This document shows positions 2,140 to 44,191 of a DNA stretch of 45,370 nt, piece by piece. Origin of the DNA: a virus; IMG/VR virus record IMGVR_UViG_3300017758_000017, positions 1 to 45,370 of that record; one strand, given 5' to 3'. The translations under genes were made by a program, and so were the position numbers. The notes under the pieces were generated by a model, which saw nothing but the letters and a program-made list of their open reading frames with translations, was not told the DNA's origin and made no database searches. How positions within the stretch are numbered: the first letter of the stretch is position 1; every line of letters starts with the position of its first letter.

Positions 2140-2150
2140 GTGTAATCTAT
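2140..2150 (+). promoter_or_regulatory. Candidate phage promoter motif GTGTAATCTAT
   Basis: This copy of the recurrent GTGTAWW(W)A motif lies directly after the capsid terminator and 22 bases before the next start codon. The downstream sequence TATGATAAGG could serve as an alternative -10. Placement between a terminator and a gene supports a promoter; the link to the phage sigma factor at 27413-28000 is inference. Confidence 0.45.
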
Positions 2151-5055: not shown

Positions 5056-5070
5056 GTGTATTTAAAGTAA
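5056..5070 (+). promoter_or_regulatory. Candidate phage promoter motif before the tail tube gene
   Basis: GTGTATTTAAAGTAA begins 29 bases before the tail tube ATG and five bases after the previous stop codon. It matches the recurrent GTGTAWW(W)A motif. A separate promoter here would explain why the tail tube gene is bounded as its own high-expression unit. Confidence 0.45.
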
Positions 5071-6320: not shown

Positions 6321-6340
6321 TCAGTAAAAAACTCACAAAG

Positions 6341-6371
6341 CAGCCTCACCGAAAGGTGGGGCTGTTTTTTT
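6341..6371 (+). terminator. Intrinsic terminator after the tail tube gene, GAAA tetraloop
   Basis: A ten-pair stem CAGCCTCACC / GGTGGGGCTG (one T-G pair) closes a GAAA (GNRA-type) tetraloop, followed by seven T residues. It begins 20 bases after the stop codon, the same spacing as the capsid terminator, and like that one uses a stable tetraloop. Confidence 0.93.
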
Positions 6372-6386
6372 GTGTAATATATAAGG
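6372..6386 (+). promoter_or_regulatory. Candidate phage promoter motif GTGTAATATATAAGG
   Basis: This copy starts immediately after the T-run of the tail tube terminator and ends one base before the next start codon. If the motif acts as a -10 element, the transcript would have almost no leader. Confidence 0.5.
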
Positions 6387-7592: not shown

Positions 7593-8446
7593 ACAAGGAA
7601 AGTTCACTACTCTTAGATATACTGCGTGGTTATAGTAAAATAACTTACAAGTATAAAGATTATTACTTCAAACACTTTGGAGTATATGATAGCTTGAAGC
7701 TCCAAGAGTTTGAGTTAGATTGTATTACTGAAGCCAAGAAGAAAGGTATTAAGGGAAAAGATGAGCTTCTAGAGTTAGCGATAAAAAGGGGAGGGTGGTC
7801 AAAAGAGGAAGAGTCTTCAATGAAGGACTTAAAATGGATGATTGAAAAGTCAAAAAAAGCTTCTGCAAAAATATCGGACAACAACTCTCGAAAAGCTTTT
7901 GAAGGCTCTATTGCAAAACAGGCAGATCAGCTTGTTAAATTGGAAGCCAAAAAGAATCAGTTCACTAATCATAGTGCTGAAAACTTGGGGAAAAGAAAAA
8001 GAGCTAATAAGGAAATAAGTCTCAGCCTCTTTTACGATAAGGAGATGACGAGAAATGTGAGTGAGGAAGATTTATTTTTTTTAATTTCAGAGGTCAACTT
8101 AAGGATACAAGAACTAACAAGTGTTGAGAATTTATTAAAACTTGCTTATGAATCTTACTTTTTTGATGTATATTGTTTGAATTATAGAAATCCAAATCAG
8201 ATTCTTGACACAAACATTTACAAAATAACAATATGGCAAAAAAGCTTATTGTCTTATGCCTCTATTCTTTTAAATAAACTTAAAAATCTTGATATTCCTG
8301 ATGATATTAGGGAAGATGCTGTAAAGGTGTATAATTTCCAGCCGAGAGAAGATGGAGCTAAGGGAGATAAAGTCACAGAAGGAGTCTCTGACCTTAGAGC
8401 AAAAATGGCACAAAGAGGAGGAAAGCTGACTGCTGATGACTTTTAG
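7589..8446 (+). CDS. Putative tail assembly chaperone, second gene
   Basis: A 285-residue Lys-rich helical protein ending one gene before the tape measure. Residues about 45-130 are strongly charged and probably coiled. The segment RNVSEEDLFFLISEVNLRIQ is a clear amphipathic helix, and the C-terminus (KMAQRGGKLTADDF) is polar. It starts with an ATG overlapping the previous stop by four bases, which argues for coupled translation with gene 6810-7592. No named domain is recognised; the role as chaperone partner is inferred from position between tube and tape measure. Its last base overlaps the candidate promoter for the tape measure gene. Confidence 0.5.
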   Translation: MNKESSLLLDILRGYSKITYKYKDYYFKHFGVYDSLKLQEFELDCITEAKKKGIKGKDELLELAIKRGGWSKEEESSMKDLKWMIEKSKKASAKISDNNSRKAFEGSIAKQADQLVKLEAKKNQFTNHSAENLGKRKRANKEISLSLFYDKEMTRNVSEEDLFFLISEVNLRIQELTSVENLLKLAYESYFFDVYCLNYRNPNQILDTNIYKITIWQKSLLSYASILLNKLKNLDIPDDIREDAVKVYNFQPREDGAKGDKVTEGVSDLRAKMAQRGGKLTADDF

Positions 8447-8460
8447 TGTATTTAATTACA
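8446..8460 (+). promoter_or_regulatory. Candidate phage promoter motif before the tape measure gene
   Basis: GTGTATTTAATTACA begins on the last base of the preceding stop codon and ends directly at the ATG at 8461. A purine-rich AGGAGG lies 40 bases upstream, too far for a ribosome site. Transcripts from this motif would be leaderless or nearly so. Confidence 0.45.
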
Positions 8461-13147: not shown

Positions 13148-14692
13148 ATGAGTTTATTAGTTAATAATGTAATCAACTCTAATTCTCAAATTTCCTATTC
13201 TTATTTGGGAAGTCAGGAAGTTTTTGGGTATTTAGTTACTTTAAATTATACTCTAAAAGTAGAAGACATACAGTTCGACAATAATGACGGTGTTCTACTG
13301 TCTGGAAGAGCTGCCATTAGATCAGCTTACAAGAGGCAAAATATAACGGCTCGTATAGCTGGAGACGAAATATTAAACGGGCTAGTTACTAGGGTATCTT
13401 TTGCAGAAGGCTCCCTAAACGGAGAAGATACTGTAAACATAACAATTGAAGAAAGGAGGAGGTTAGATGATTACAGTTCAAAAACCTTTGCTAAATACAT
13501 CCCAAGCCCTCATTTATTAGAAGACTTCTCTGAAAGCTATGATTTTACAAGATCAGATGCAGACTACTCTTACAATAGGAGTATATCTATAAAATATTCT
13601 CAAGATGCGGGAAATCAGTTTTTGAGAAATGCAAAAGCCTTCCTCACTAATTACTACTATGCTAATAGACCCAGCTTAGGATACTATGAAGATGGCATAT
13701 CTGAAAATGCTAGATTCAATAAAAATTATAATGGGACTCTCAGCCAGACAATAGATTTAGTAAACTTATCTGTTGATCTACAAGAAAGTTTCGACTCTTC
13801 TTTTATTGTTGATTCAGAAAACGTTTCTAAAAAGATAACCACTTCTAACTCAGTTGATGAAAAAGGATACCTCACTAAAGTTATTAGTGTTGAGTTAACG
13901 TCATTAAAGCATCACTCTTCTAAAGTTTTGGAGGATGCTATAGGATTGACTATAGATAGTGTCATTTCCGATGAAGAAAGTCAGTTTGGAAAGCCATTCG
14001 CTATAGAAAAAGGCATAACAAAAGACTCTAGAAAAGCGTCACTATCTATTAGTTTCTCTACTGACCCAGAACTGTCTCAAGAAAATAGTATTTCTTATAA
14101 TTGCACTAAAAATAAAACAGGTGCGTATTTAGAATATGATTTGAGTGTGAAATATTCAGCTAAAGACAAAAATTCACAAACAAGATATGATAGTGTTATA
14201 GCTTTGTGGACTTCCAACAAAGAGAACAATGAGACTAAAGTTGTAGGATTGTTTTCAGAAGCTACAGAAATATACGAGAAATCAAGATCTGCCACGATTG
14301 ACAAACCAAAAGGATCGGTAACAGAAAATATAAAATACACTACAAATGATTCTTACGATTCTGGGCCTTTGCCGAAAGGGATTTTAAAATTTAACATTTC
14401 TATTCAAAAGAAAGATAAGGTGAAGAGAAATGAGGTGGTGTTAAGTGTAAAAGACCTAAAGCAAAAACTTGTTGTTTCTGATTTAAATGCATTAGGTTCG
14501 GCTACTGTGACTGCTACCACTACAGCAGACCCAGCATATGGGATTAATCATGGCAAAGACTTCTTAAATAGTAAAACTACGGAAATGAACGCAGCTTTAG
14601 AAGAAACAGAGTTCCACGGAACAAGCGATGTGATTACATCTAATTTAGTTGATGGAACAACAACTCGTGTAATAGAGTATATAATAGCTTAA
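13148..14692 (+). CDS. Distal tail structural protein with repeated beta domains
   Basis: A 514-residue, Ser/Asn/Tyr-rich protein directly after the tape measure gene, where distal-tail proteins are coded. The first 115 residues look like a tail-tube-like beta domain (EVFGYLVTLNYTLKVEDIQF, then DTVNITIEERRRLDDYSS). The remainder has at least two weakly similar units made of a helix, a KASLSISFSTDPELSQ-like strand pair and an SISYN-like strand. Similar units occur in the next gene, so the two may be paralogues. No cysteine-rich, enzymatic or membrane motif is visible. Distal tail protein or tail-tip adaptor is the inference; the exact family is unknown. Confidence 0.5.
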   Translation: MSLLVNNVINSNSQISYSYLGSQEVFGYLVTLNYTLKVEDIQFDNNDGVLLSGRAAIRSAYKRQNITARIAGDEILNGLVTRVSFAEGSLNGEDTVNITIEERRRLDDYSSKTFAKYIPSPHLLEDFSESYDFTRSDADYSYNRSISIKYSQDAGNQFLRNAKAFLTNYYYANRPSLGYYEDGISENARFNKNYNGTLSQTIDLVNLSVDLQESFDSSFIVDSENVSKKITTSNSVDEKGYLTKVISVELTSLKHHSSKVLEDAIGLTIDSVISDEESQFGKPFAIEKGITKDSRKASLSISFSTDPELSQENSISYNCTKNKTGAYLEYDLSVKYSAKDKNSQTRYDSVIALWTSNKENNETKVVGLFSEATEIYEKSRSATIDKPKGSVTENIKYTTNDSYDSGPLPKGILKFNISIQKKDKVKRNEVVLSVKDLKQKLVVSDLNALGSATVTATTTADPAYGINHGKDFLNSKTTEMNAALEETEFHGTSDVITSNLVDGTTTRVIEYIIA

Positions 14693-21662: not shown

Positions 21663-22772
21663 TCAATCAGTATAAAGCATAAGTTTATCCAAGTCAATGA
21701 AAATATCGTCTAAATTCTCTTTGTTATTTGCCTCAAAAAGAGAGTGATATGCTTGCCCATTTTTAAAATAAATTGTATAAGATTTTATCTTCAAGTCCTC
21801 TTTTGGGAGTTCGACCATTTTTTTTGCTTCCTCTACTTTTTTAGAGTCGTTGATAAAAGAGATTTGATTATCGAAAAACTTATACCTTTCTTCATTAATC
21901 GTTTTCTCATTTGTGCAAAATAAACGTAAAGTTACACCTTTCTTTTTCGCTCTTTCGATAAACCCTGAGTCAAATCGATCACAGAAATAGTTAATGCAAT
22001 TGATATTTTTTTGACTTAAAATTTTATCGCCTAATGGCTTATTTGTTACAATAGAAATATTATTATTTTCAAATAAGTGAAGAGTATTTTCTTCATCATG
22101 ATGCAAGTCAAACCTAAGAACTGTTTGCTTGGAGGATACCCCATATTTCTTATCTGGTATAATATGGATAAATTGTTCCTTATATTTATTGCCAATAAAA
22201 ATTGTTTTTCTAGAACTCTTATTTTTGCGTAACTTTTTTAGAATAGCGTTGGCTATTTCCTCTGGTTTAATCAAGTTGACTTGCTTAGGCTCCTCTTTTA
22301 AAGAGTAAGATGGTTTTTTGCCGTTCCTATGAGATTGAATTATTGTGTGGTTCTTTTTTGAACCCCAGACTGGACTGCAAGTAGAGGCATAGGTGTGTGC
22401 ATATATCGCAACAATAGGTTTATCAAAAGAGGAAGCAATATGAACTGGCAAACTATCTATGCCAACATGCATAAGACCATTCTTAATAATATAAGCAGAT
22501 TGCTTGATGCTGGTAGTAGCAAGAAACTTGGTAACATTTTTTATTTTTGGTTCTTCCCCAGAACCTATTTGAATAAACTTAATATCTGGAGCTTGCTCCT
22601 TAACTAAGCAAATAACCTCTTCCCAATAATCGTATTCTTTGGATTGAACTTTATTATCATTATGAATGGTGATATAATTATCTTCAAGAAGAGGAAAAAA
22701 ATGAGGTTTAAAATGAGGTTGACCAATTTTAACTCCCAAATCTTTTGCGTAAACTTCTACTAAGTGGCTCAT
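21663..22772 (-). CDS. C-terminal half of a GT9 (heptosyltransferase-like) enzyme plus an extra domain
   Basis: 369 residues. Residues 1-200 match the nucleotide-sugar-binding half of GT9 enzymes: YITIHND, then KFIQIGSGEE, and GIDSLPVHIASSFDKPIVAIY at 104-124, equivalent to the G-x-D-S-G-x-x-H-x-A-x-A motif. A WG motif follows at 136-137. The start MSHLVEVYAKDLGVKIG is what usually follows the first GT9 half, which is found at the C-terminus of the upstream protein (22769-24475). The two genes overlap by ATGA, so the enzyme is split. Residues about 210-369 form a separate unrecognised alpha/beta region (LRFDLHHDEENTLHLFENNN) that may be a regulatory or second catalytic part. It probably needs the upstream half for activity. 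Confidence 0.6.
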   Translation of the reverse strand: MSHLVEVYAKDLGVKIGQPHFKPHFFPLLEDNYITIHNDNKVQSKEYDYWEEVICLVKEQAPDIKFIQIGSGEEPKIKNVTKFLATTSIKQSAYIIKNGLMHVGIDSLPVHIASSFDKPIVAIYAHTYASTCSPVWGSKKNHTIIQSHRNGKKPSYSLKEEPKQVNLIKPEEIANAILKKLRKNKSSRKTIFIGNKYKEQFIHIIPDKKYGVSSKQTVLRFDLHHDEENTLHLFENNNISIVTNKPLGDKILSQKNINCINYFCDRFDSGFIERAKKKGVTLRLFCTNEKTINEERYKFFDNQISFINDSKKVEEAKKMVELPKEDLKIKSYTIYFKNGQAYHSLFEANNKENLDDIFIDLDKLMLYTD

Positions 22773-25047: not shown

Positions 25048-25056
25048 GTGTATTCT
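25048..25056 (+). promoter_or_regulatory. Candidate phage promoter motif GTGTATTCT before the adhesin gene
   Basis: This + strand copy lies in the 38-base gap between the divergent SSB-like and adhesin genes, 31 bases before the ATG at 25079. It is the weakest fit at its last positions (TTCT instead of WWWA). A second AT-rich stretch, TAGATAATCT, lies just downstream and could serve as -10. Confidence 0.35.
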
Positions 25057-26337: not shown

Positions 26338-27420
26338 TTAATAAATTTTTTCTAGGATTTTTTCAACGGTCTTTGCGTATGTAAACTCCTCTTGAAGCTT
26401 TAGCCCTTCGGTATTTTCAGATTTAGCAAACTGAACGGATTGATCCAAAGCATTAGAGATGCCATCTTGGTGAAGTCGGTAATACTCTCCTTGATTGTAT
26501 TTATGACCTTTGATGAAAAAGGCATTATCATAACAAGGTTGTTTTCCTACTGGATCTACAAGGATAGCGTTATCCTTAGTGGCCCAATCTTTATGTGAAG
26601 AGCAATTACTCACAATGGACCACTTACCTAGAGCGGTTGCATTAAATGCGGGTAGATTCCATCCTTCTCCATTAGATAAGCCAGAAATATCGATATCAAT
26701 TGAATTGATTAGGTCGTTAACTTCACTGTTTGTTTTAAGTCGAGGTAGGAAGTTAATATTAGAATACTTTTGATTATTCATCGCTTGAGCAATCGCTTGA
26801 TTCATTTGTTCTTCCTTTAAGAACGGGTTTCCAATTAAGCAGGTTAGTTGGTATCTTGGATTATTGCCAAATTTATTTGACCATAGCTGGATGAGAGCTT
26901 GGGTGTTTTTTCTTCTTTCCATTTTCCCAATAAGGCCGAAGTGAATCACATCATCACCAAGGTATTCTTTATCTATTTTGTGAAAATCTGTATCAAAACC
27001 AAGCGGGACATAGGACACATTGCCACAACCCTTATCCTTAAATGATTGAGCAGCTTCAGAACAAGAAAAGAAAACGTGATTCTGAGCTTTTACAATACTA
27101 ACCTCCTCTTCTGTAGGAGAGTCCACTTCATAAAAAGTGTATAAAAATTGATTATCTCCGATCTTTTTTTCTGACCCGTTAATATGCCAAACTTTTAGGG
27201 TGGGGGTTGACCTATCTAAACGACTTACTGCTTTGTCTGCATTTTCATTTATGTAGTCTTGATCTTCTTTCGGTAACTTGTCAAAGGCCGAGAAGTCTAA
27301 ATTACCCATTGGAAATATATTGAGATCTATATTTTTTTTCTTTAATTCCCTAAGAAAATTTAAAGAAACATTGCCTAAGCTTAGAGAATTGAACGGAGCG
27401 TCGAAATTGAGTTTATGCAT
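26338..27420 (-). CDS. GT4-family glycosyltransferase
   Basis: 360 residues, the second gene after the sigma factor in this minus-strand unit; its start overlaps the sigma gene end by eight bases. The N-terminus is a Rossmann-like half (LNFDAPFNSLSLGNVSLNFL, then LKVWHINGSE). The second half has the donor-site order of GT4 enzymes: IHFGLIGKMERRKNTQALIQ at 158-177, then YQLTCLIGNPF and SGLSNGEGWNLPAFNATALG. WSIVSNCSSHKDWAT follows, where the EGxxxPxxEA region is usual; here Glu is replaced by Asn/Ala. Probable role: adding a sugar to a glycan. The link to the sigma factor gene is unexplained. Acceptor and sugar are unknown. Confidence 0.66.
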   Translation of the reverse strand: MHKLNFDAPFNSLSLGNVSLNFLRELKKKNIDLNIFPMGNLDFSAFDKLPKEDQDYINENADKAVSRLDRSTPTLKVWHINGSEKKIGDNQFLYTFYEVDSPTEEEVSIVKAQNHVFFSCSEAAQSFKDKGCGNVSYVPLGFDTDFHKIDKEYLGDDVIHFGLIGKMERRKNTQALIQLWSNKFGNNPRYQLTCLIGNPFLKEEQMNQAIAQAMNNQKYSNINFLPRLKTNSEVNDLINSIDIDISGLSNGEGWNLPAFNATALGKWSIVSNCSSHKDWATKDNAILVDPVGKQPCYDNAFFIKGHKYNQGEYYRLHQDGISNALDQSVQFAKSENTEGLKLQEEFTYAKTVEKILEKIY

Positions 27421-28000
27421 TTTTTTTAAATTGTTTTTTAAATTCTTTTAACGTTCGGTCATGAATGTTTATGCAGCCCTGAGCAGAAACGCCAACTTGT
27501 TCTCCAATATTTTTCCAAGTTTGAAGTTTACCTTTTTCTCCTCCAAAGTAGCGTTCTTTAAAAATAGTTTTTACTCTTTCATCACGATGACCATTTATAA
27601 GTTCGACAATTGAAAACATGCTTTCTTTAATTTCGCAACTTTCATCTGGGTGCAAGTCGTCAGACTCTTTGGAGTAATCGATTGAGTCGAATGGCAACAT
27701 GATTTTGCCGTTTTTCCTTGCTGTTTTTTTGCTCAAACAGAGATATTTTGCTTTGTTGCCAACATGAGTGGAAAACTTAGCTTTGTTTTCGTCATAATCT
27801 AAGGCTGCTTTGTAAATTATGTAATCTTTTTCATCAATTATGTCAACAACGTCATTTGAAGGTAGGGATTTTGATGCGTATCTCCTCACCATATCAACAT
27901 AAATTCCTGAATGCCTCTCTATCAGCAAACCTAAAGCTTCTTCATGGTCACTCTGTTTAACTAAATCAGTTAATTCAGGATCTGTTGAGTCATAATCCAT
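27413..28000 (-). CDS. Phage-encoded RNA polymerase sigma factor (sigma-70-like)
   Basis: 195 residues. Residues about 18-95 match sigma region 2: EEALGLLIERHSGIYVDMVRR, then DYIIYKAALDYDENKAKFST and HVGNKAKYLCL. These give the core-binding helix and the -10 recognition helix with the D-Y-D and KFST signatures. Residues about 140-195 match region 4 (RVKTIFKERYFGG, then QTWKNIGEQVGVSAQGCIN), an HTH that would contact a -35 element or a partner protein. Region 1 and most of region 3 are lacking, so it is a compact sigma, comparable in role to T4 gp55 but longer at the C-terminus. Candidate targets are the GTGTAWW(W)A motifs. It has its own divergent promoter. Confidence 0.8.
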   Translation of the reverse strand: MDYDSTDPELTDLVKQSDHEEALGLLIERHSGIYVDMVRRYASKSLPSNDVVDIIDEKDYIIYKAALDYDENKAKFSTHVGNKAKYLCLSKKTARKNGKIMLPFDSIDYSKESDDLHPDESCEIKESMFSIVELINGHRDERVKTIFKERYFGGEKGKLQTWKNIGEQVGVSAQGCINIHDRTLKEFKKQFKKNA

Positions 28001-28003
28001 AAT

Positions 28004-28042
28004 TTAATACGAATATACTCTCATTAAGTCAATAAATGTCAA
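28004..28042 (-). promoter_or_regulatory. Promoter for the sigma factor gene (divergent)
   Basis: On the minus strand TTGACT (28032-28027) is followed after 17 bases by TATTAA (28009-28004), three bases before the ATG. A second TTGACA (28042-28037) pairs less well with TATATT (28017-28012) at 19 bases. Host sigma-70 type elements would make this an early gene. The very short leader of the first pair is unusual. Confidence 0.5.
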
Positions 28043-28056
28043 GTAAAATTTTTTTC

Positions 28057-28084
28057 TTGACGGATTTTTTATTTTCAGTATAAT
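28057..28084 (+). promoter_or_regulatory. Sigma-70-type promoter for the ribonucleotide reductase genes
   Basis: TTGACG at 28057-28062 and TATAAT at 28079-28084 are separated by 16 bases; only one base differs from the full consensus. Transcription would start near 28091, giving a leader of about 167 bases before nrdB. The element is back to back with the sigma gene promoter and should be read by host polymerase early in infection. Confidence 0.82.
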
Positions 28085-28131
28085 AGACGTATTGGAGCCG
28101 AAGTAGCAAGGATACGAACCTTTACAGTGCA

Positions 28132-28156
28132 GTTAGGATTCGTTGTTAGGATTCGT
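28132..28156 (+). repeat. Direct repeat pair GTTAGGATTCGT
   Basis: Two identical 12-base copies, 28132-28143 and 28145-28156, one base apart (period 13). They lie in the nrd leader and could be a binding site for a protein or a duplicated hairpin arm. The repeats are exact. Confidence 0.85.
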
Positions 28157-28193
28157 ATTCTATTAATACTCACTACGTTCGCATTAATAGAAT
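28157..28193 (+). repeat. Perfect 11-base inverted repeat ATTCTATTAAT
   Basis: Left arm 28157-28167 and right arm 28183-28193 are exact reverse complements around a 15-base loop (28168-28182). The T-run further right at 28205-28217 does not directly follow the stem, so it is not a typical intrinsic terminator. It may still stall or protect the nrd leader transcript. Confidence 0.75.
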
Positions 28194-28257
28194 GGCTTCG
28201 CCAGATTTTTTCATTTTTTCCTTGCCCATTAAGCCCATTCGTGTAAATAGATGAGAC

Positions 28258-30897: not shown

Positions 30898-30906
30898 GTG
30901 TATATA
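30898..30906 (+). promoter_or_regulatory. Candidate phage promoter motif GTGTATATA
   Basis: This is the cleanest copy of the recurrent motif, in the gap after nrdA and 17 bases before the ATG of the 33-residue ORF. A weak GGGG/CCCC hairpin lies just upstream. Confidence 0.5.
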
Positions 30907-30914: not shown

Positions 30915-31016
30915 ATGACCGAACCAGAAATTAATTTTACAGACGAGGTAGAACTCGACGAAACAATAGCATTTATACTAGATCGTATTGACGAAGCTCA
31001 ATTAGAAGAGGATTGA
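30915..31016 (+). CDS. 33-residue acidic ORF
   Basis: A short frame (33 codons) too small for usual ORF lists. It begins with MTEPEINFTDEVELDETIAF and ends in LDRIDEAQLEED. It is strongly acidic and likely one amphipathic helix. It has a candidate promoter at 30898 and ends four bases before the next promoter-like motif. Small acidic proteins in phages often bind host enzymes or DNA-mimic targets, but here only size and charge are known. Coding is supported by position between two promoter-like motifs rather than by similarity. Confidence 0.45.
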   Translation: MTEPEINFTDEVELDETIAFILDRIDEAQLEED

Positions 31017-31019
31017 TTT

Positions 31020-31027
31020 AGTATATC
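31020..31027 (+). promoter_or_regulatory. Weaker promoter-like motif AGTATATC before Hsp20
   Basis: AGTATATC (with TTT before and TCTA after) lies 12 bases before the TTG at 31032. It lacks the leading GT but otherwise matches the recurrent motif. Confidence 0.3.
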
Positions 31028-31031
31028 TCTA

Positions 31032-31520
31032 TTGTCTGAGAATTTCCAGCACCCAAATGGGGCTAGAAAAACAAAACTAACTAAAAATAGTAGTATGACA
31101 ATGATGATAAACAAAATGTTGGCTCCCTTGGTTTTCGAGGGAGATATCTTTAAACGTATGCAGTTATTAGCTAACGAAGCTAATGCTCCACTGTATTCAG
31201 GCTCAGAGCCTTACGATGCTTACAAAGACAAGGATGGTAATTTTATTCTTGAGTTTGCATTAGTCGGATTAGATCAGGAAGATATTTCCGTATCTGTATC
31301 TGGACAGACCTTGAAGATTGAGGCGGGATCTCAGCAAAAAGACGATGATGCTGAATTCTACCATAAAAAAATATCTCGACGATCTGTCAAGAAGCACTTT
31401 ACCTTGCATCAGAACGTTGATAAGGACTCCATTCAGGCAGAATATAAAAATGGCCTACTGAGAGTCAAAATACCTCTTGAGAAAGAGGAGAAAAAAGACA
31501 TAATGATTGAAGTTAAGTAA
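31032..31520 (+). CDS. Hsp20-family small heat shock protein
   Basis: 162 residues from a TTG start (MSENFQHPNG); an ATG at 31095 (MTMMINKML) would give 141 residues, so the start is uncertain. Residues about 60-160 form the alpha-crystallin domain. It begins with PYDAYKDKDGNFILEFALVG and includes EDISVSVSGQTLKIEAGSQQ. It ends with AEYKNGLLRVKIP, the A-x-x-x-NGxL signature. The protein should hold unfolding proteins soluble. Hsp20 genes occur in several marine T4-like phages, where help in capsid assembly or host stress is suspected. A strong terminator follows 22 bases after the stop. Confidence 0.9.
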   Translation: MSENFQHPNGARKTKLTKNSSMTMMINKMLAPLVFEGDIFKRMQLLANEANAPLYSGSEPYDAYKDKDGNFILEFALVGLDQEDISVSVSGQTLKIEAGSQQKDDDAEFYHKKISRRSVKKHFTLHQNVDKDSIQAEYKNGLLRVKIPLEKEEKKDIMIEVK

Positions 31521-31579: not shown

Positions 31580-32191
31580 ATGATCACTTACGGAATAACA
31601 GTTGCAGACGAGTTTTTTGAATTTAAAAGATTAATTAATTCACTTGAGCCTTATATTCTTCCAAATGAAGAAATTGTCATCTTGGCAGACAAAAACAAAG
31701 TAACCAAAGAGATTGAAGAGTTTTGTGAGCTTTGCGGGTTAAAAGTAAACTACTTTGACTTTCAGAAAGATTTTTCTGAGTTTAAGAACACATTATTTGA
31801 TCTATCTACAAAGCGTTATTTGATGCAGATAGATGCAGATGAACAGATACCTCCTTCTCTAATAAATGCTTTGAGGGAGGTCGCCAAAGAGGGGAACTTT
31901 GACATGCTTTGGATTCCAAGAATTAACGTTGTTCGCGGGGCGACAGGAGAGCATATCAAAAAATACAACTGGAAAATAGACGATATGGGTTGGGAAGGAT
32001 TTCCTGATTTTCAATCTCGCTTTGCTTCTACCAAAGGTCATATTAGGTGGCAGAATAAAGTCCATGAAGTTTTAGCTGGAGGGAATGATCAAGGTAAACT
32101 TTATCTCAATCCTATTGAAAATTTCTGTATCCTTCACGTTAAGGATATTCAAAAACAAGAAAAACAAAATGACCTCTACGATACAATCTGA
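31580..32191 (+). CDS. GT2-family glycosyltransferase
   Basis: 203 residues, GT-A fold. D85-A-D87-E88 in YLMQIDADEQIPPSLINALR is the metal-binding DxD; FDMLWIPRINVVRG and then FPDFQSRFASTKGHIRWQNK precede VHEVL, the W-x-x-x-VHE signature of WaaE/KdtX-like enzymes that add glucose or similar to LPS core. The first enzyme gene of the sugar cassette; translation is probably limited by the hairpin at 31543. The end overlaps the start of the next gene by 23 bases. Sugar and acceptor unknown. Confidence 0.75.
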   Translation: MITYGITVADEFFEFKRLINSLEPYILPNEEIVILADKNKVTKEIEEFCELCGLKVNYFDFQKDFSEFKNTLFDLSTKRYLMQIDADEQIPPSLINALREVAKEGNFDMLWIPRINVVRGATGEHIKKYNWKIDDMGWEGFPDFQSRFASTKGHIRWQNKVHEVLAGGNDQGKLYLNPIENFCILHVKDIQKQEKQNDLYDTI

Positions 32192-32993
32192 AATATTGGT
32201 TAGAGCAGAAGGGGGCTTGGGAGATTGTTTGCTTTCTAATAGATTTATTCCAGCGATTAGAGAATACCACTCTGATTGCCATATTACTTTTGCTTTCGAT
32301 AATGACAGAGGAGAAACCTATCAACTAGATGTTTTGCGGGATTTTTACCCAAGCATGTCTGACAGGTATTGTTTGTGGAGTGAGGTTGATAAAAATAATT
32401 ACGATTTCTTTTATGATCTCCATATCGATAAAATGGAATGGACTACTTATGATTTTGATTGGTTGAGCCGTTTCTATTATTTTCCCAAACTAGAGCTAGC
32501 AATTGAAAAAGGAGACTATGTCTGCTTGCACTTGACTCATAATTTATGGGAACCAAAAAACCTTAAAAAAGATTATGTAACTCAGTTAGTGAACTGCCTA
32601 CATGAGACAGGAAACAAACTTGTAGCTATTTGCACAGAAAAGGAAAAAGAGCGTTACTCTGATGTTTTGGACAAAGTGCAAATAGTTTGTTCTAGTATTC
32701 AAGATGCATGTATTACAGTAATGTCAGCCAAGGCTTTTGTAACTATTGATTCTGGTTTCAAGTATATAGCTTATGCGAATGGAGTTCCTACAATAGAAAC
32801 TGCTGACTACTATTCACAAGTGGGAGCAACTAATCCAATGATTAAAGCTAGGTGGTTGCCATTCCAAGAGAGAGGCTTACCCCTTTACTCTGATCCTCAA
32901 TATTTTTCAGTCGGCTTAAAAAATGTTTTAGAAAATAAAATTTCTTCAATATTTCCATATAACAATTCAAACAAGAAAGTCTTCAAATTATGA
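32169..32993 (+). CDS. GT9-like glycosyltransferase, compact
   Basis: I start at the ATG of MTSTIQSEILVRAEGGLGDC (274 residues); a frame open further upstream begins in the previous gene with a Leu/Ile-rich, unlikely extension. EGGLGDCLLSNRFIPAIRE matches the nucleotide-binding start of GT9 (heptosyltransferase-like) enzymes. ITVMSAKAFVTIDSGFKYIA, then YANGVPTI, matches the second-domain D-S-G motif. A CLHLTH strand lies between. It is shorter than the usual 330-350 residues. Probable role: transferring a sugar within the surface glycan. The stop overlaps the next start as ATGA. Confidence 0.6.
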   Translation: MTSTIQSEILVRAEGGLGDCLLSNRFIPAIREYHSDCHITFAFDNDRGETYQLDVLRDFYPSMSDRYCLWSEVDKNNYDFFYDLHIDKMEWTTYDFDWLSRFYYFPKLELAIEKGDYVCLHLTHNLWEPKNLKKDYVTQLVNCLHETGNKLVAICTEKEKERYSDVLDKVQIVCSSIQDACITVMSAKAFVTIDSGFKYIAYANGVPTIETADYYSQVGATNPMIKARWLPFQERGLPLYSDPQYFSVGLKNVLENKISSIFPYNNSNKKVFKL

Positions 32994-33751
32994 TCGTTTC
33001 AACTTCAAGAGGTCTCTATGACTTGAAAGAAAAAAAATTCATTATAGAAGATAATGGCCCATATTTTGGCGTAGCTAAAGATAGCAATAATTGTATCTAC
33101 GCAGCTAGAAGGGGGACAAGCGATGTAATAATTTTAGATGAAAATTATAAAAAAGTTGGCGTAATTAATACTCCAACTTGCGTGGATGCACACGGCTTAG
33201 AAATTTATAATAATAAAATTTACATTTTATCGACAAAGAGTAATGATATTATTCAAGCCGATTTGCAATCAATGGAGGTAGAAAAAATTTTTAGAAATAC
33301 TGTGGGTGATAAAAATCCACATATGAATAGTGTTGAAAAAATTGGCGATCTTTTATTTATAATGTCTCATAGGGATAACTCTACGAACTCGTCTTGTATT
33401 CATTTGTTTAGTCCTGAAATAAATAGAGCATTCAGATTTTTTAATGATCTTGGCGAGCACTGTCATACAATCAAATATTACAATAGCACTTTCTGGTATT
33501 GCGACTCTTTTAACTCTAGAGTTGCCTCTGTTGACGGAGACAGCATTGAGATTGATTCAAGTCAGCTAGTTAGGGGGATGGCATTGCAAGATAACAAGCT
33601 TTATGTTGGTTTATCTGAAAAAGCTTCAAGAGCAGATCGGCATGACAGCGTTGATGGGGAGGTAGTGGTTTTTGACTTTAAATCAAAAAAATATATCGAA
33701 AGCATAAAAATTAAAAACTGTGGGCAAGTAAATGAAATCCTATTACATTAA
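32990..33751 (+). CDS. Beta-propeller protein of the sugar cassette (TIGR03032-like)
   Basis: 253 residues with about six blades. Blade motifs include FGVAKDSNNCIYAARRG, VDAHGLEIYNNKIYILST, PHMNSVEKIGDLLFIMSHRD, EHCHTIKYYNSTFWYCDSFN and VRGMALQDNKLYVGLSEKAS. The last, with a strand followed by R-G-M-A and VGLS, resembles the TIGR03032/DUF4915 group found beside glycosyltransferases. No catalytic set is evident. It could be a scaffold, a lectin or a modifying lyase. The end overlaps the next gene by 20 bases, so both are read from one message. Confidence 0.6.
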   Translation: MIVSTSRGLYDLKEKKFIIEDNGPYFGVAKDSNNCIYAARRGTSDVIILDENYKKVGVINTPTCVDAHGLEIYNNKIYILSTKSNDIIQADLQSMEVEKIFRNTVGDKNPHMNSVEKIGDLLFIMSHRDNSTNSSCIHLFSPEINRAFRFFNDLGEHCHTIKYYNSTFWYCDSFNSRVASVDGDSIEIDSSQLVRGMALQDNKLYVGLSEKASRADRHDSVDGEVVVFDFKSKKYIESIKIKNCGQVNEILLH

Positions 33752-34412
33752 CCTTGAATCTAGAAAAGACAGGCTGGAAAGTTTTTCAAGTGAGTTTAAA
33801 AAAATTCGAAGTTTATTCGTCGATGGTTGCGATAGAATAGAAGCTATAAAATTTAGTGAAGATAATGTTTCTTATAATAAAGCTGCCTGTTCCGCTTCCC
33901 ATGCTAAAGCAATCAGAAAAGCAATACAACATGGCTCTACCAAATTCACTATTTTTGAAGATGATGTAGTTTTTGACGAATCAAAAACAGAAGATTTTAT
34001 TATATCTCACGATTCTCTGCCAGAAAATTTTGATTTATTTTATTGGGGTTGTGTTTTACAAAAAAGCGGTTCCGTCTACATCCCAGATAAAAACAAGAGA
34101 GGTGCAGAAAATCATTCAGACACTTTGTATAAAGTGAATTCTGCGGGTTCTGCTCATGCAATTACTTATTCTTTAGAGTTTGCTAAATTTTTGGATGAAA
34201 ATCTTTTTCCTAAAAGCTATGATATGACATCATGGGTTGAATGGCAAAAAGAGAACATTTGTTATGATCATTGGTTGAAGTTTCAAGGTTTTAATTTTAA
34301 TTTTTTTAGCCCAAAATTTATCTATGCATCTCAATATGATAATCATTCAGATATAGATGGAAAATTTTCTAATAGAGATGTTGTAATTAAAAATTCATTT
34401 TTAGATATTTAG
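33732..34412 (+). CDS. GT25-family glycosyltransferase
   Basis: 226 residues. It starts MKSYYINLESRKDRLESFSS, the classical opening of GT25 (LPS galactosyltransferase type). It has ACSASHAKAIRKAIQHG at 52-68, and the metal site E76-D77-D78 in FTIFEDDVVF. The segment NFDLFYWGCVLQKSG and a Tyr/Asn-rich C-terminus follow. It should add galactose or a related sugar to the glycan chain. It overlaps the propeller gene and ends one base before the fucosyltransferase. Substrates are inferred only from the family. Confidence 0.78.
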   Translation: MKSYYINLESRKDRLESFSSEFKKIRSLFVDGCDRIEAIKFSEDNVSYNKAACSASHAKAIRKAIQHGSTKFTIFEDDVVFDESKTEDFIISHDSLPENFDLFYWGCVLQKSGSVYIPDKNKRGAENHSDTLYKVNSAGSAHAITYSLEFAKFLDENLFPKSYDMTSWVEWQKENICYDHWLKFQGFNFNFFSPKFIYASQYDNHSDIDGKFSNRDVVIKNSFLDI

Positions 34413-34413
34413 T

Positions 34414-35196
34414 ATGATTACTTGTTTAGATATTTCGAATAGAGCTATTGGAAACGCTCTTTTTAATTATTATTTCTTACTTACGGTTGCAGATAAGACT
34501 GGTTATAAGCCTATTTATCCAGTTTCTCAAGAGTTTATGCATCACTCTGGCCAAAGGATACAACAATTACAATCTGGCTTTAATATTGATATAGATAAGA
34601 TGCCAGTAGATGAGATTAGCAAGCATTTGAAGTATATTTACAGAGAACATCAGGATAATGTTTTCGATGAAGATGTTTTCAATATCAAAGATGACACTAA
34701 TTTTACTGGGTATTTTCAGAATCGAAGATTCTTTAATTTGGACGATAAAAAAAATATTGAATTCAAGGACTCCATAATTGAACAATCACTTTTAGTTCTA
34801 GAAAAACTTGGAGTAGAAGCTAAAGATTTTGTTTCTATTCATGTGAGGAGGGGAGATTATCTAAAAATAGACCAGCACCCCGTTCAAACAATGGACTATT
34901 ATAATAAAGCTGTCGATCAATTCCCAAATCGTAAATTTTTGGTATTTTCTGATGACTATGAATGGATTAAAGACAATTTCGATTCAGAAAGATTTGTATG
35001 TTTCCCAACTCAAGAGGATGCGTTCATAGATTTGTATTGCATGTCGGCTTGTTCTGACAATATAATAGCGAATTCTACATTCTCTTGGTGGGGGGCTTTT
35101 TTAAATAAAAATGTGGACAAGACAATTGTTTACCCTGATAATTGGTTTAAGAGCAAAAGTGCGGAAATATTCCCAGAGGACTGGGTAAGGATATGA
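34414..35196 (+). CDS. GT11-family alpha-1,2-fucosyltransferase
   Basis: 260 residues. The GDP-fucose-binding motif H143-V-R-R-G-D-Y149 is intact. So is the second conserved motif NSTFSWWGAFL near the C-terminus. A preceding GYFQNRRFF and a FSDDYEWIK strand also match GT11. It should transfer fucose from GDP-fucose to a glycan, which needs a GDP-fucose supply: Gmd at 37367 makes the precursor, but no GDP-fucose synthase (fcl) gene is in this window. The stop overlaps the next start as ATGA. Host supply of GDP-fucose is possible. Confidence 0.85.
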   Translation: MITCLDISNRAIGNALFNYYFLLTVADKTGYKPIYPVSQEFMHHSGQRIQQLQSGFNIDIDKMPVDEISKHLKYIYREHQDNVFDEDVFNIKDDTNFTGYFQNRRFFNLDDKKNIEFKDSIIEQSLLVLEKLGVEAKDFVSIHVRRGDYLKIDQHPVQTMDYYNKAVDQFPNRKFLVFSDDYEWIKDNFDSERFVCFPTQEDAFIDLYCMSACSDNIIANSTFSWWGAFLNKNVDKTIVYPDNWFKSKSAEIFPEDWVRI

Positions 35197-35606
35197 AAAA
35201 AATAAAAAATAAAAATGGGGATGTATTGCACATCATCTATAGATTATCAGAACTAGAAGACCTAGATTTTAGAGAGGATATTTCGGATGAGTCTGAATTC
35301 CTGCAACTTGCCGCAATTAAAATCCCAGATAACCATAAATTTCGGGGACACAAACACCTAACTCTTCCTAGAGAAACAAACATCACCCAAGAATGTTGGG
35401 TGGTTGTTAAAGGTAAAGTCAAAACATTCCATTATGATGAAGACGATAATCTCTTAGAAGAAAACATTTTGGAGGTTGGTGACGCGACTATAACTTTCAG
35501 AGGAGGTCATAATTATCAGGCTCTTGAAGAAGGTGCGCTAGTTTACGAAATAAAAACTGGCCCTTATATGGGGCAAGCAAAAGATAAAACATTTATTAAT
35601 GATTAA
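35193..35606 (+). CDS. Cupin-fold protein (WxcM/FdtA-like position)
   Basis: 137 residues, jelly-roll fold. FRGHKHLTLPRETNITQECW and the hydrophobic VVVKGKVKTFHYDE strand, then GDATITFRGGHNYQALEEGA and TGPY, give two cupin motifs. The histidines in GHKH and GGH could bind a metal. In sugar loci such cupins act as ketoisomerases or epimerases of nucleotide sugars. The context (between the fucosyltransferase and methyltransferases) supports sugar modification, but the exact reaction cannot be read. It overlaps the next gene by eight bases. Confidence 0.6.
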   Translation: MKKIKNKNGDVLHIIYRLSELEDLDFREDISDESEFLQLAAIKIPDNHKFRGHKHLTLPRETNITQECWVVVKGKVKTFHYDEDDNLLEENILEVGDATITFRGGHNYQALEEGALVYEIKTGPYMGQAKDKTFIND

Positions 35607-36156
35607 GTTAAATTTAGGCTGCGGCCCTACCAACTTTGGAGATGAATGGATTCATATTGATTCTGGTGACTACGATCACTTGGATTTGAAATTTAACTCT
35701 ATTACTAATTTACGTTGGGAATCAAATTCTGTAGATGTTATTTATGCTTCTCACGTTTTAGAATATTTCGATAGACAAGAAGCTTTAGAGATTTTATCCG
35801 AATGGAAAAGGGTTCTTAAAAAAGGGGGGACTCTTCGATTAGCTGTTCCAGATTTTGATGTGATGTCTAGGCTGTATCAAGATGGAGAGTATCCATTAGA
35901 TAGATTTCTTGGGCCTTTGTATGGCAAGATGGTAATGTCAGATAAAATAATTTATCACAAGACAGTCTACGACTTTGATTCAATAAGTAAGATTCTTAGT
36001 GAGGAAATTGGATTTAATTCTGTTAAGCGTTATAATTGGAGGGATACGGATCATTCTCATATTGATGATTGCTCTCAAGCGTATTTGCCCCATATGGACA
36101 AAGATAATGGAACCTTAATAAGTTTAAATGTAGAATGTAAAAAATGGACAAGTTAA
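35599..36156 (+). CDS. SAM-dependent methyltransferase (class I)
   Basis: 185 residues. Motif I is LNLGCGPTNFGDEWIHIDSG, followed by SVDVIYASHVLEYFDRQEAL, the motif after strand 4. KRVLKKGGTLRLAVPDFDVM completes the Rossmann-like core. It is a short single-domain enzyme of the type that methylates sugars or glycan ends. The following FkbM-type enzyme overlaps its end by 13 bases, so two methyltransferases are made together. The target is unknown. Confidence 0.8.
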   Translation: MIKLNLGCGPTNFGDEWIHIDSGDYDHLDLKFNSITNLRWESNSVDVIYASHVLEYFDRQEALEILSEWKRVLKKGGTLRLAVPDFDVMSRLYQDGEYPLDRFLGPLYGKMVMSDKIIYHKTVYDFDSISKILSEEIGFNSVKRYNWRDTDHSHIDDCSQAYLPHMDKDNGTLISLNVECKKWTS

Positions 36157-36779
36157 CGAAAAATTTAATAAAAGATCTTATTGGCAAGAATGATCCTATC
36201 ATATTGGAGGTTGGGTCTTATGATGGTGAAGATAGTCTTGAAATGTTAAAGTTAATGCCTCAAGCGGAAATTTATGCCTTTGAAGCTGATCCGACATCAA
36301 TTCAACATTTTAAAGATTTAGATCATCCAGAAAAAATTGTTTTAGTAGAAAAGGCGGTAGGTAAAGAAGATGGTTATATTGATTGGTATCCTAGCCAAAC
36401 CAATAACGGGGAACGTTGGTCTTTATCAAGCTCTCTTAAAAAACCATTAAATCATTTGAGAAACTACCCAACTGTTTCATTTAAAACAGATCCAGATAAA
36501 GTAGAGTGTGTTAAATTAGACTCTTGGTCTCAAGAAAATATTGGAGAAAGTATTATAGATTTTATCTGGTGTGATGTGAATGGAGCGGAAGAAGAAATGA
36601 TTCTGGGGGCTATCGAAACCCTTCAAAACAAAACAAGATACTTTTACACAGAGTGTTTTGATACAGAACTTTGGGAAGGGCAAGTAAATACCAAATGGAT
36701 TCTTGAAACTTTAGATAATTTTGAGTTTCTTGGAAAGTATGGCCACAATATTCTTCTTAAAAATAAAACCTTAGAATGA
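36144..36779 (+). CDS. FkbM-family methyltransferase
   Basis: 211 residues. ILEVGSYDGEDSLEMLKLMP (motif I), EIYAFEADPTSIQHF, KVECVKLDSW and then IDFIWCDVNGAEEEMILGAI match the FkbM family, which O-methylates sugars of surface glycans. The protein is complete but lacks an N-terminal extension seen in some relatives. Its stop overlaps the next start as ATGA. Together with the previous methyltransferase it suggests a methylated sugar in the phage-determined glycan. Confidence 0.82.
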   Translation: MDKLTKNLIKDLIGKNDPIILEVGSYDGEDSLEMLKLMPQAEIYAFEADPTSIQHFKDLDHPEKIVLVEKAVGKEDGYIDWYPSQTNNGERWSLSSSLKKPLNHLRNYPTVSFKTDPDKVECVKLDSWSQENIGESIIDFIWCDVNGAEEEMILGAIETLQNKTRYFYTECFDTELWEGQVNTKWILETLDNFEFLGKYGHNILLKNKTLE

Positions 36780-37360
36780 AGCAAGTAAAAGACTTTGAGG
36801 ATAAGGTGGCTAAGTTTTTCGGAGCTAAGTATGCTGTAGCTGTAGATAGCTGCACACATGGCTTGGAACTTTGTTTGAGAATGCAAAACATTAAAGAGCT
36901 TTGCGTTCCTAAGAGAACATATATTTCAGTTCCTTTTTTAGCAAATAAATTAGGTATTCCACTCAAATGGAAGGAAGAGTCATGGCAAGATTACTATTTT
37001 ATTGAAGGGACAAATATTGCTGATGCAGCAGTTCTTTGGCGCAAGGGTAGTTATGTCCCAAATACATTTATGTGTTTGAGCTTCCAATTTCAAAAACATC
37101 TTAGTCTTGGGAGAGGTGGTATGATTCTAACCGACAACAAACAAGCCTCCGAAGATTTAAAGAAAATGTCTTATGATGGGAGGTTGCCAGATGTCCCTTG
37201 GAGAGATCAGGACATATCTAGTTTTGGGTATCATTATTACATGACCCCAGAGACAGCTCAAATAGGGTTAGATAAATTAGAGGACGCTATTAATACTAAA
37301 CCCAAAAAATGGGTTATAAATGATTGGCCAGACTTGACAAAGATGAAAGTTTTTCTATAA
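36776..37360 (+). CDS. Miniature DegT/DnrJ-type aminotransferase
   Basis: 194 residues, about half the usual 370. The PLP-enzyme core is still readable: FEDKVAKFFGAKYAVAVDSC at the start, then TNIADAAVLW where D83 would touch the PLP ring. LSFQFQKHLSLGRGGMILTD has K107 as the likely PLP lysine. The small C-terminal domain is missing after GYHYYMTPETAQIGLDKL. It could convert a 4-keto sugar, such as the Gmd product, to a 4-amino sugar as PerA does. The reduced size could mean a degenerate or partner-dependent enzyme. Its last 27 bases hold the promoter of gmd. Confidence 0.68.
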   Translation: MKQVKDFEDKVAKFFGAKYAVAVDSCTHGLELCLRMQNIKELCVPKRTYISVPFLANKLGIPLKWKEESWQDYYFIEGTNIADAAVLWRKGSYVPNTFMCLSFQFQKHLSLGRGGMILTDNKQASEDLKKMSYDGRLPDVPWRDQDISSFGYHYYMTPETAQIGLDKLEDAINTKPKKWVINDWPDLTKMKVFL

Positions 37361-37361
37361 T
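37334..37361 (+). promoter_or_regulatory. Consensus sigma-70 promoter before gmd
   Basis: TTGACA at 37334-37339 and TATAAT at 37356-37361 are both exact consensus hexamers, 16 bases apart. The ATG of gmd is at 37367, so transcription would start at about the start codon and the message would be leaderless or nearly so. It lies inside the end of the aminotransferase gene and would supply gmd and the replication genes early. Confidence 0.75.
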
Positions 37362-37366: not shown

Positions 37367-38362
37367 ATGAAGAAAAAAGCTCTTATTACTGGCATCTCAG
37401 GTCAAGACGGAAGTTACTTGGCAGAGTTACTCTTAGAAAAAGATTACGAAGTTTATGGATTTATTAGGCGGCATTCTCTAGCTAGCACTCAAGAAACTAG
37501 GGTTGATCATCTAGTCAGCAAAGGTCTAGTTAAAACTGATTATGCTGATCTTTTAGATAATTCCTCTATAAATCGTTTGATGGGTCTTATTCGACCAGAT
37601 GAGATTTACAATCTTGCAGCTCAAAGCCACGTTAGAGTCAGCTTTGATGTTCCTCAATTTACTTTGCAAACAAATATGATAGGAACTCTGAACATGCTTG
37701 AAGCATATCGTTTCTGTTGCCCAGAAGCTAAATTTTATCAAGCGAGTTCTTCTGAGATGTTCGGTAATGAGATCGATGAAGATGGGTTTCAAAGAGAAAC
37801 TACTCAAATGAAGCCTGTTAGTCCTTATGGGTGTTCTAAGTTAGCTGCTCATTGTATCGTAAGAAATTATCGTAATTCTTATAATTTGTTTGCTTCTAAC
37901 GGCATTTTATTTAATCACGAGTCCCCTCGTAGGGGAGAAAACTTTGTTACCGCAAAAATAGCTAAAGCTGTAGCAGCAATCCACTTGGGATTACAGGAGG
38001 ATTTGGTTCTAGGAAATTTGGAATCTTATAGGGACTGGGGTCATTCTAAAGATTATGTAAAAGCAATGCATGCTATTTTGCAGCACCACGAACCAGAAGA
38101 TTTTGTTATTTCTTCAATGCAGACTCATTCTGTTAGGGATTTTTGCGAGGAAGCATTTGGTTTTGTTGATCTAGATTACAAGGATTTTGTTAAGAGCGAT
38201 CCGAAGTTTTATAGGCCAGAAGAGTTGAAAAAGCTAAAGGGCGACTCGTCTAGAGCTAGAAAAACTCTTAATTGGGAGCCAGAATTTGACTTTAAAGGCT
38301 TGGTTGCAGATATGGTTTCTTACTGGATTAATGAATTATCTGTTGACAACAATCAAAATTAG
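37367..38362 (+). CDS. gmd: GDP-mannose 4,6-dehydratase
   Basis: 331 residues, normal length. Makes GDP-4-keto-6-deoxymannose, precursor of GDP-fucose and GDP-perosamine. G9-x-x-G12-x-x-G15 in ITGISGQDGSYLAELLL binds NADP; the catalytic set is seen in QASSSEMFG with S128 and E130, and in the Y154-x-x-x-K158 pair of VSPYGCSKLAAH. FNHESPRRGENFVTAKIAKA and NLESYRDWGHSKDYVKAM match the sugar-binding part. It should feed the fucosyltransferase and/or the aminotransferase of the cassette. It has its own consensus promoter. Confidence 0.95.
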   Translation: MKKKALITGISGQDGSYLAELLLEKDYEVYGFIRRHSLASTQETRVDHLVSKGLVKTDYADLLDNSSINRLMGLIRPDEIYNLAAQSHVRVSFDVPQFTLQTNMIGTLNMLEAYRFCCPEAKFYQASSSEMFGNEIDEDGFQRETTQMKPVSPYGCSKLAAHCIVRNYRNSYNLFASNGILFNHESPRRGENFVTAKIAKAVAAIHLGLQEDLVLGNLESYRDWGHSKDYVKAMHAILQHHEPEDFVISSMQTHSVRDFCEEAFGFVDLDYKDFVKSDPKFYRPEELKKLKGDSSRARKTLNWEPEFDFKGLVADMVSYWINELSVDNNQN

Positions 38363-43158: not shown

Positions 43159-44191
43159 AAACAAGCCTCTGTCAGCCTCACGCATTAAAACAATGCAGAC
43201 TTGCACTTGGCAATATTGGGCTAAGTATCATTTGCGTCTACCAGACAAATCTAATCATGGATCTTTGCGTGGGACAATCTGTCATGCTATTTTTGAGAAC
43301 TTAGGTAACCCTAGACATAGGAAGCATTATAGAGCTATTATTAAAGCTCAAGATATAAATGTTAGCTCTCCTATTAAGAGGATGGTCGAAGCTTATGCTA
43401 AAAAGTATGAGATAGACGACTTTGAGAATATGGACCTAATCAATAAGATGACAGTTGAGGGTTTGAATTTTGACTTCTTTGGGGATACAGAGGGGAAACC
43501 TACAGAAGCTATCTCTGAGAAAGATTTCGATATATCTGTAGATGAAGGAGATAAGAATTATCGGATACTAGGGTTTATAGATAAGCTATTCCTCTTTAAA
43601 AGAAAAAAAACAGCCATAATCCGAGACTTTAAAACATCAAAAAATGTTTTCGAAGGTAAGGAGTATTCAGACAACATGCAGGATTATATGTATTGCCTTG
43701 CTGTTAAATATTTGTATCCAGAATACCTTAAGAGGCGTATGGAGTTCTTATTTTTAAAGTTCGATTTAAATGCGGAGGGTCTTATGGCTATGGAGCCGTT
43801 AGATGAACTAGACTTAGAAGGTTTTGAATATTTTTTAACGGATGTTCAGCAGGTAATCAACAACTTCAGTGAAAAGACTGCGGTTAGCGGTCTTGCTTGG
43901 GACAAGGGTTATCCAGCAAAGGAAGACGGGTTCGCTGGCAAAATTGTTTGTGGTAGAGCTACTCATGTAGGGCAATTGAAAAAGAATGGAGATTTGATGT
44001 GGCACTGTCCGTTCAAGTTTCCATTCGATTATTATCACCTGCTTGGGGGAAAAGATAAGTTCATCAAGTCGTCTTATGTAAAAGAAGATTTACAAGTCAT
44101 GCTTGACGAAGGAGTAGGCACACATATCGAGAAGAAAAAATATTCTGGTTGTCCGTCTTTTTCGTTTGACAGTCCAAGTGACCTCCTTTAA
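43145..44191 (+). CDS. RecB-family PD-(D/E)XK nuclease
   Basis: I start at ATG 43145 (348 residues), overlapping the primase end by 14 bases; the open frame starts earlier but inside the primase. LSASRIKTMQTCTWQYWAKY is the opening of RecB-type nucleases. RILGFIDKLFLFKRKKTAII and the RDFKTSK motif give the catalytic D and K. YSDNMQDYMYCLAVKYLYPE supplies the Q-x-x-Y helix. It probably trims DNA ends for recombination or replication, as with Cas4/AddB relatives. The cysteines do not fit a normal Fe-S cluster set. Confidence 0.8.
   Translation: MEKSENKPLSASRIKTMQTCTWQYWAKYHLRLPDKSNHGSLRGTICHAIFENLGNPRHRKHYRAIIKAQDINVSSPIKRMVEAYAKKYEIDDFENMDLINKMTVEGLNFDFFGDTEGKPTEAISEKDFDISVDEGDKNYRILGFIDKLFLFKRKKTAIIRDFKTSKNVFEGKEYSDNMQDYMYCLAVKYLYPEYLKRRMEFLFLKFDLNAEGLMAMEPLDELDLEGFEYFLTDVQQVINNFSEKTAVSGLAWDKGYPAKEDGFAGKIVCGRATHVGQLKKNGDLMWHCPFKFPFDYYHLLGGKDKFIKSSYVKEDLQVMLDEGVGTHIEKKKYSGCPSFSFDSPSDLL

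Follow-up and report, generated by a model that had tools for sequence, protein, structure and literature searches.

The sigma factor gene at the locus

The window, by which is meant here the whole 45,370-nt stretch of viral DNA that was analysed, carries on its minus strand (27413..28000) a gene for a 195-aa protein, which on the evidence of the reading frame, profile matches and a predicted structure is a diverged two-domain (sigma2 + sigma4) sigma factor. The original prediction had held that regions 2 and 4 could be read in this gene, and both are indeed visible by HMM and in the model: sigma2 (residues ~7-100) is followed by a linker and then by sigma4 (residues ~120-194), sigma3 being absent and residues 102-123 forming a low-confidence linker in the AlphaFold model (two domains, pLDDT 82). 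A Pfam search of the protein returned nothing above the cut-off, and its matches in PHROGs are weak, the N terminus to an RNA polymerase sigma factor (phrog_351) and the C terminus (residues 120-193) to a transcriptional regulator (phrog_36). A PDB profile search from a 47-member alignment of the family matches SigA, FliA and sigmaE, and the motifs QGCINIH and HSG are invariant across these 47 relatives. The best structural matches of the model are to region 2 of sigmaE (VIA Z 10.9) and region 4 of SigH (Z 9.6), and the nearest fold is that of the ECF sigmas (e.g. E. coli sigmaE), which likewise have sigma2 and sigma4 without sigma3; where the phage protein differs from these is that no anti-sigma is seen, there is no -35 consensus and the sequence identity is low.

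Both the sigma factor and the major capsid protein (MCP) have many relatives in IMG/VR. Among 50,697 named phages, tblastn found no relative of either protein and megablast no match to the window, and the more distant members of the sigma family just touch the sigmas of cyanophages and Bacillus phages. No relation was detected to T4 gp55 (hhalign probability 0.5%, BLASTP 13.9 bits) or to phiEco32 gp36 (hhalign probability 0.1%). The sigma gene itself has a weak sigma70-like promoter, TTGACA-19-TATATT (28012..28042, minus strand, 42 nt before the ATG), which has a suboptimal spacer, is incompletely conserved in relatives and lacks GTGTA.

GTGTA sites in the window and in related contigs

According to the original prediction, GTGTA followed by A/T bases stands before gene blocks at seven places. 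Six of these are real, GTGTA being present at 2140, 5056, 6372, 8446, 25048 and 30898; two further sites, 14667 and 28241, had been left out, while the "weaker copy" at 31020 reads GTATATC and is rejected, the motif being absent before 15 of 15 Hsp20 orthologues. Along the plus strand, putative promoters lie at 2140..2147 (22 nt before the gene at 2162; 6 of 13 orthologues have the motif), 5056..5064 (29 nt before the putative major tail protein gene at 5085; 17 of 25), 6372..6379 (16 nt before 6388; 6 of 11), 8446..8454 (15 nt before the tape measure ATG at 8461; 17 of 18, mostly also at 15 nt), 14667..14674 (27 nt before 14694; 10 of 13) and 25048..25055 (31 nt before 25079; 14 of 16, at 31-32 nt), to which are to be added a GTGTAAATA box at 28241..28249, 17 nt before nrdB (28258), and a GTGTATATA box at 30898..30906, 17 nt before a 33-aa ORF. 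The GTG-start ORF that had been called at 8446 is the promoter itself. Also correct was the statement that two sites directly follow terminators, since intrinsic terminators are found at 2097-2122 and 6337-6368, directly before the sites at 2140 and 6372.

The 33-aa ORF (30915..31016, plus strand; MTEPEINFTDEVELDETIAFILDRIDEAQLEED, in short MTEPEINFTDEV...) is marked by its upstream GTGTA box and shows 84-100% identity in contigs of eight relatives; it is likely to be a real small gene, missed by ORF length cut-offs. The stretch TTTAGTATATCTCTATTGTCTGAGAA at 31015-31060 on the plus strand, upstream of the Hsp20 gene, contains two 8-mers (TCTATTGT and GTCTGAGA) that are enriched upstream of relatives' genes, and it may be an alternative start that has been conserved (TTG 31032), or else some other element. 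From the Hsp20 gene to the replication genes (31580-37360, plus strand) there is a run of sugar-/methyl-transfer-like ORFs which, unlike the flanks, are mostly present in only 2-9 relatives, and which perhaps constitutes a variable surface or glycan region.

Plain counts within the window give no enrichment (GTGTAWWWA 6, against 3.5 +/- 2 expected; GTGTAWWA 7, against 5.7), so that the earlier hand estimate, by which well under one hit would be expected by chance, is insufficient for the claim on its own. Placement, on the other hand, is far from chance: 8 of the 17 plus-strand occurrences of GTGTAW lie 14-37 nt before plus-strand genes where 0.36 would be expected (P about 8e-10, for a -14..-37 zone that was picked after relatives had been examined). 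These relatives comprised 14 further sigma-bearing contigs, plus seven at about 40% sigma identity; the contigs are fragments, genes were taken as ATG ORFs (first-ATG calls) from a simple script, and the counts among related contigs were thinned by identity, leaving their independence incomplete. When 6-mers upstream of genes were counted without supervision in 15 contigs (including the window), GTGTAA came top, at 88 against 7.6 expected; on the reverse strand the same count gave 11, and TTGACA was high too. Sense upstream DNA contains GTGTAWWW at 2.7 per kb, coding DNA at about 0.1 per kb. The specificity extends to single bases, there being 123 GTGTAA and 30 GTGTAT sites at 14-19 nt before an ATG, and 0-8 sites for each of the other 17 of the 18 single-base variants; on these counts G at box positions 1 and 3 is essential, TATA-type variants are unused, and the 6-mer ATGTAA itself is not enriched in the relatives. 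No -35 consensus was found, every position from -40 to -7 staying under 0.08 bit, and a T-run just upstream of GTGTAA is enriched, as would be seen after terminators (12% vs 4%).

Were the window considered alone, its non-significant plain counts might encourage the view that GTGTAA arises by chance or merely from the composition of AT-rich intergenic sequence, but this is refuted in the relatives by the strand and position of the motif, by its specificity down to single bases and by its conservation among orthologues, and practically no probability attaches to it. These comparisons instead support a conserved promoter-like motif before virion genes that is tied to the sigma-bearing lineage.

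Two probable promoter classes and their distance from the start codon

If the distance d is counted in nucleotides from the G of the motif to the ATG, the 282 non-redundant GTGTA sites number 1 at d = 13, 62 at 14, 46 at 15, and then 13, 16, 7 and 7 at 16 to 19, above a background of about 0.8 sites per position at d 60-120; at 7-13 nt there are about 6 of the 282. Stop codons cannot be the cause of this edge, as at d = 14 there is no in-frame stop within GTGTAA. The fixed spacing of 14-19 nt to the start codon is the most unusual feature of the whole system, and is absent from the original prediction. Shine-Dalgarno-like sequence occurs in 0.5% of the 189 genes with d of 13-19, which is below the level in shuffled sequence (the figure for T4 is 66%). 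About a third of the GTGTA sites lie at 22-45 nt from the ATG, also mostly without a Shine-Dalgarno, and for these one would expect leaders some 10-30 nt long.

A second class of promoter, TTGAC-17-TATAAT, stands before replication genes, with a peak at d = 35 (65 sites) and an edge at 33-34; a TATAAT-like -10 lies between TTGAC and the ATG, and variants of TTGAC are at or near background. Putative members of this class in the window are TTGACT-17-TATACT at 21669..21697 on the minus strand (36 nt before gene 20870, which starts at 21661; 10 of 20 orthologues) and, on the plus strand, TTGACA-16-TATAAT at 37334..37361 (33 nt before the sugar-nucleotide dehydratase-like gene at 37367), together with TTGAC -35 elements at 38343..38347 (34 nt before 38377; 6 of 13 orthologues) and 44166..44170 (35 nt before the DNA polymerase-like gene at 44201; 9 of 14).

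The promoter type is kept by orthologues, the tail, tape measure and 25079 genes belonging to the late class, where "late" is a label taken from gene content and not from timing. Recognisable early-class genes are those for DNA polymerase (one early-class relative matches the DNA polymerase phrog_405 in PHROGs), helicase, clamp loader, ribonucleotide reductase small subunit and rIIB; PHROGs annotation of late-class genes in the relatives gave two recognisable genes, both tail proteins, and eight others without a family. In one relative (G031), a 987-aa late-class protein (L226:3220-6183) has a match to the "tail sheath" phrog_15433 in its last ~260 residues, a J-like central tail fibre being encoded on the same contig. 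Among 1639 non-redundant gene starts, the number having a promoter at near-leaderless distance was 153 for the late class and 128 for the early class, with just 1 having both (about 12 expected). The classes are nonetheless not absolute, since nrdB is found with both promoter kinds among relatives (the late kind in 15 of 18 orthologues, the early kind in 4 of 18). In the window, a near-consensus sigma70 promoter, TTGACG-16-TATAAT, lies at 28057-28084 on the plus strand, with a ~160-nt leader before nrdB, and the GTGTAAATA box is near the end of this leader (window 28057-28257); with both elements before it, nrdB may have transcripts in the early and the late phase alike. The leader RNA (28089-28257) has a predicted fold no better than shuffles (z -1.4), and an Rfam search with an E-value limit of 1 gave six weak matches, none above the gathering score.

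Where a sigma70 promoter has a spacer of 17 nt, counting 35 nt from the T that begins TTGACA leads to +1. In the case of the GTGTA box there are two known phage systems to go by: phiEco32 transcripts start 6-8 bp after tAATGTAtA (PMC8948821), a rule that would put +1 at d 13-15, while the T4 late box has its first base at position -13 (PMC2988020), which would put it at d 14. Two unrelated elements thus have matching edges, as would be expected if +1 coincides with the start codon, and from this and the analogy with known boxes we infer that transcription begins on the start codon and that the mRNA is near-leaderless. The -10 element is separated from the start codon by about 10-14 nt, as is characteristic of leaderless genes. 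Near-leaderless promoters of one class or the other are found, however, for only 146 of the 511 genes whose upstream gap is at least 40 nt.

There are two ways in which the spacing might be read differently. GTGTAA could be a promoter with its +1 elsewhere, giving ordinary leaders or a start inside the gene; the start position is, after all, predicted from sequence, and the few sites at 7-13 nt could be taken in this sense, but the edge falls exactly where the phiEco32 and T4 boxes predict, the -35 edge of the second class agrees, and we consider such an arrangement improbable. Alternatively, the tight ATG spacing and absence of Shine-Dalgarno sequences could indicate that GTGTAA is no promoter at all, but rather a translation-initiation element, i.e. 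a ribosome signal 14-19 nt before the ATG. This seems less probable again, because conserved sites also occur at orthologue-specific distances (27 nt for 14694, 31 nt for 25079), the upstream T-run is enriched (e.g. at sites 2140 and 6372), GTGTAA is confined to one gene class, and the unrelated TTGAC/TATAAT element has a similar edge where +1 on the ATG predicts one.

The probable reader of the box, and related systems

At least one GTGTAW lies 14-19 nt before an ATG in 78 of 81 sigma loci, the corresponding figure for control variants being 1-22 loci. The GTGTAA signal is kept in contigs at about 40% sigma identity that are without this MCP, and T4 and S-H34 do not have it at these positions. 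When IMG/VR was scanned for a terminator followed by GTGTAA and ATG (pattern GGGGCTTTTTTGTGTAA-N8-10-ATG), a search which picks promoter-after-terminator sites only and may for the most part yield one or two loci from each phage, 36 contigs were returned, all of the same lineage (34 with this MCP, the other two with sigma); of those above 49 kb, 12 of 12 carry the sigma gene, and the contigs that lack it are fragments no longer than 46 kb. Association of this kind falls short of proof of recognition, but it makes a strong case that it is the phage sigma that reads GTGTAA. A phage-encoded multisubunit RNA polymerase was rejected as the reading enzyme, since a search of 12 contigs, for which the control was positive, gave no beta subunit; a search for a single-subunit polymerase (PF00940) gave no match in the contigs or elsewhere, and is hence uninformative, and the sliding-clamp profiles PF09116 and PF02768 had no match in 12 contigs, PF09116 having matched no control either.

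Recognition by the phage sigma is nevertheless deduced from sequence, and TGTAAT is similar to TATAAT, so that one might suppose that GTGTAAWW is read by a host sigma (an alternative one, or sigma70 on a variant extended -10) and that the phage sigma acts otherwise. We regard this as unlikely, given the requirement for G at positions 1 and 3, the disuse of TATA-type variants, the lack of a -35 partner to GTGTAA, the ordinary TTGAC/TATAAT promoters that the lineage already uses for its other gene class, the way in which the motif tracks the sigma to 40% identity (including relatives without MCP), and its absence at these positions in T4 and S-H34.

We therefore return to the reading in which the phage sigma is the reader, and it is very probable, on evidence that consists entirely of sequence comparison, that this small protein directs transcription from GTGTAAWWW late promoters of -10 type and that near-leaderless mRNA results from both promoter classes. 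The two-domain sigma would redirect host core RNA polymerase to GTGTAAWWW, without a fixed -35, at promoters standing before virion and other late-type genes; the G of the box would lie at about -14, and most promoters would start transcription on the ATG or no more than about 5 nt away from it, yielding mRNA that is leaderless or nearly so and without a Shine-Dalgarno. A host-sigma70-type class (TTGACA-17-TATAAT) would serve the replication genes, with +1 likewise on the start codon, and the lineage would depend on 5'-AUG (leaderless) initiation to translate whichever gene comes first on many of its transcripts. Points against this scheme are that the sigma has a region 4-like domain, yet a -35 consensus was not found; that start codons are first-ATG calls; that some third of the GTGTA sites would give short leaders; that near-leaderless promoters account for a minority of the genes with a sufficient gap; and that the candidate hosts sampled from MAG bins do not look leaderless. 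It is also likely, if rather less so, that a whole uncultured marine lineage runs on leaderless mRNAs in this way, its early genes via host sigma70-type promoters and its late genes via the phage sigma and its GTGTAA box, both placed on the start codon.

Among known systems, phiEco32 gp36 is a phage sigma of middle/late promoters, tAATGTAtA (PMC8948821), and resembles the system proposed here as a phage sigma acting on host RNA polymerase at late genes through a single -10-like element without a -35, its box being one base from GTGTAtA; it differs in being reported to lack region 4 and in having no detectable sequence relation to the marine phage sigma, and the core of its box, AATGTA, lies mostly 41-67 nt before the ATG, with a Shine-Dalgarno leader. 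T4 gp55 is of similar size and also uses a -10-like box only, the -35 not being conserved, but lacks sigma4 and works with gp33 and gp45 (PMC2988020, PMC7892883). The GTGTAAATA box, which is G + TGTAAATA, is one base from the T4 late TATAAATA, although T4 late genes have Shine-Dalgarno leaders, with TATAAATA 22-36 nt before the ATG (one at 81); upstream of the relatives' genes TATAAATA is rare and similar on both strands, while present in the T4 control. In S-H34, CTAAATA lies mostly 25-34 nt before the ATG, farther than GTGTAA in the marine lineage. On sequence grounds the GTGTAA late box is, then, a variant of a known phage -10-like kind, and of the earlier suggestion of a new late-promoter class it is the conserved box in a sigma-bearing lineage that stands, the novelty being tempered by the single base that separates it from the T4 and phiEco32 boxes. 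Phage 7-11 gp47, which was compared by description, has a region 4-like C terminus as well as sigma70 early and phage-sigma late classes, but its promoter is bipartite, GTAAtg-(16)-aCTA (PMC8948821). The closest known gene architecture is cellular, and common in a few bacterial phyla: in leaderless genes of Actinobacteria and Deinococcus-Thermus, TANNNT precedes the start by ~12 bp (PMC3160421, PMC12340547), so that they have a -10 element at a fixed short distance from the start codon and no Shine-Dalgarno, although this is a sigma70-type element, whereas the phage lineage has both an ordinary and a phage-specific class.

As regards the host, four GTDB genomes hold the sigma, namely three Flavobacteria MAG bins and one Halobacteriovorax bin (L265-L268, G077-G080). 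One MAG bin has two separate sigma contigs, plus further contigs with the GTGTAA/ATG spacing, and the sigma contigs look like passengers, i.e. binned phage DNA; neither group was accepted as host on the strength of such bins, and the candidate hosts sampled from them do not look leaderless. Cultured flavobacteria have TAnnTTTG promoters and mostly leadered mRNAs (PMC6847099, PMC9723704), and were not accepted on that count either. Halobacteriovorax was set aside as its sampled DNA uses Shine-Dalgarno sequences and has no leaderless edge. Leaderless promoter placement throughout a phage lineage did not come up in the open-access literature that was searched. Single leaderless phage messages are known. 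The authors of work on AR9 have further remarked that phage transcripts "are often leaderless" (PMC5312081), and the novelty consequently lies in a lineage-wide, two-class placement and in the new box.

The two promoter classes together would constitute a readable transcription map, from which early and late genes and start codons may be picked out, small genes included. Gene callers based on Shine-Dalgarno sequences may misplace starts in genomes of this leaderless type. The sigma and its box would also provide a new specificity pair with which to ask how region 2 picks a -10 element (GTGTAA vs TATAAATA vs AATGTATA). Phage-wide leaderless placement, if true, would amount to a new strategy and would hint at hosts in which leaderless mRNA is translated, and were it to hold across the lineage, it would imply that initiation in the host (or on a ribosome modified by the phage) takes place mainly at 5'-AUG.
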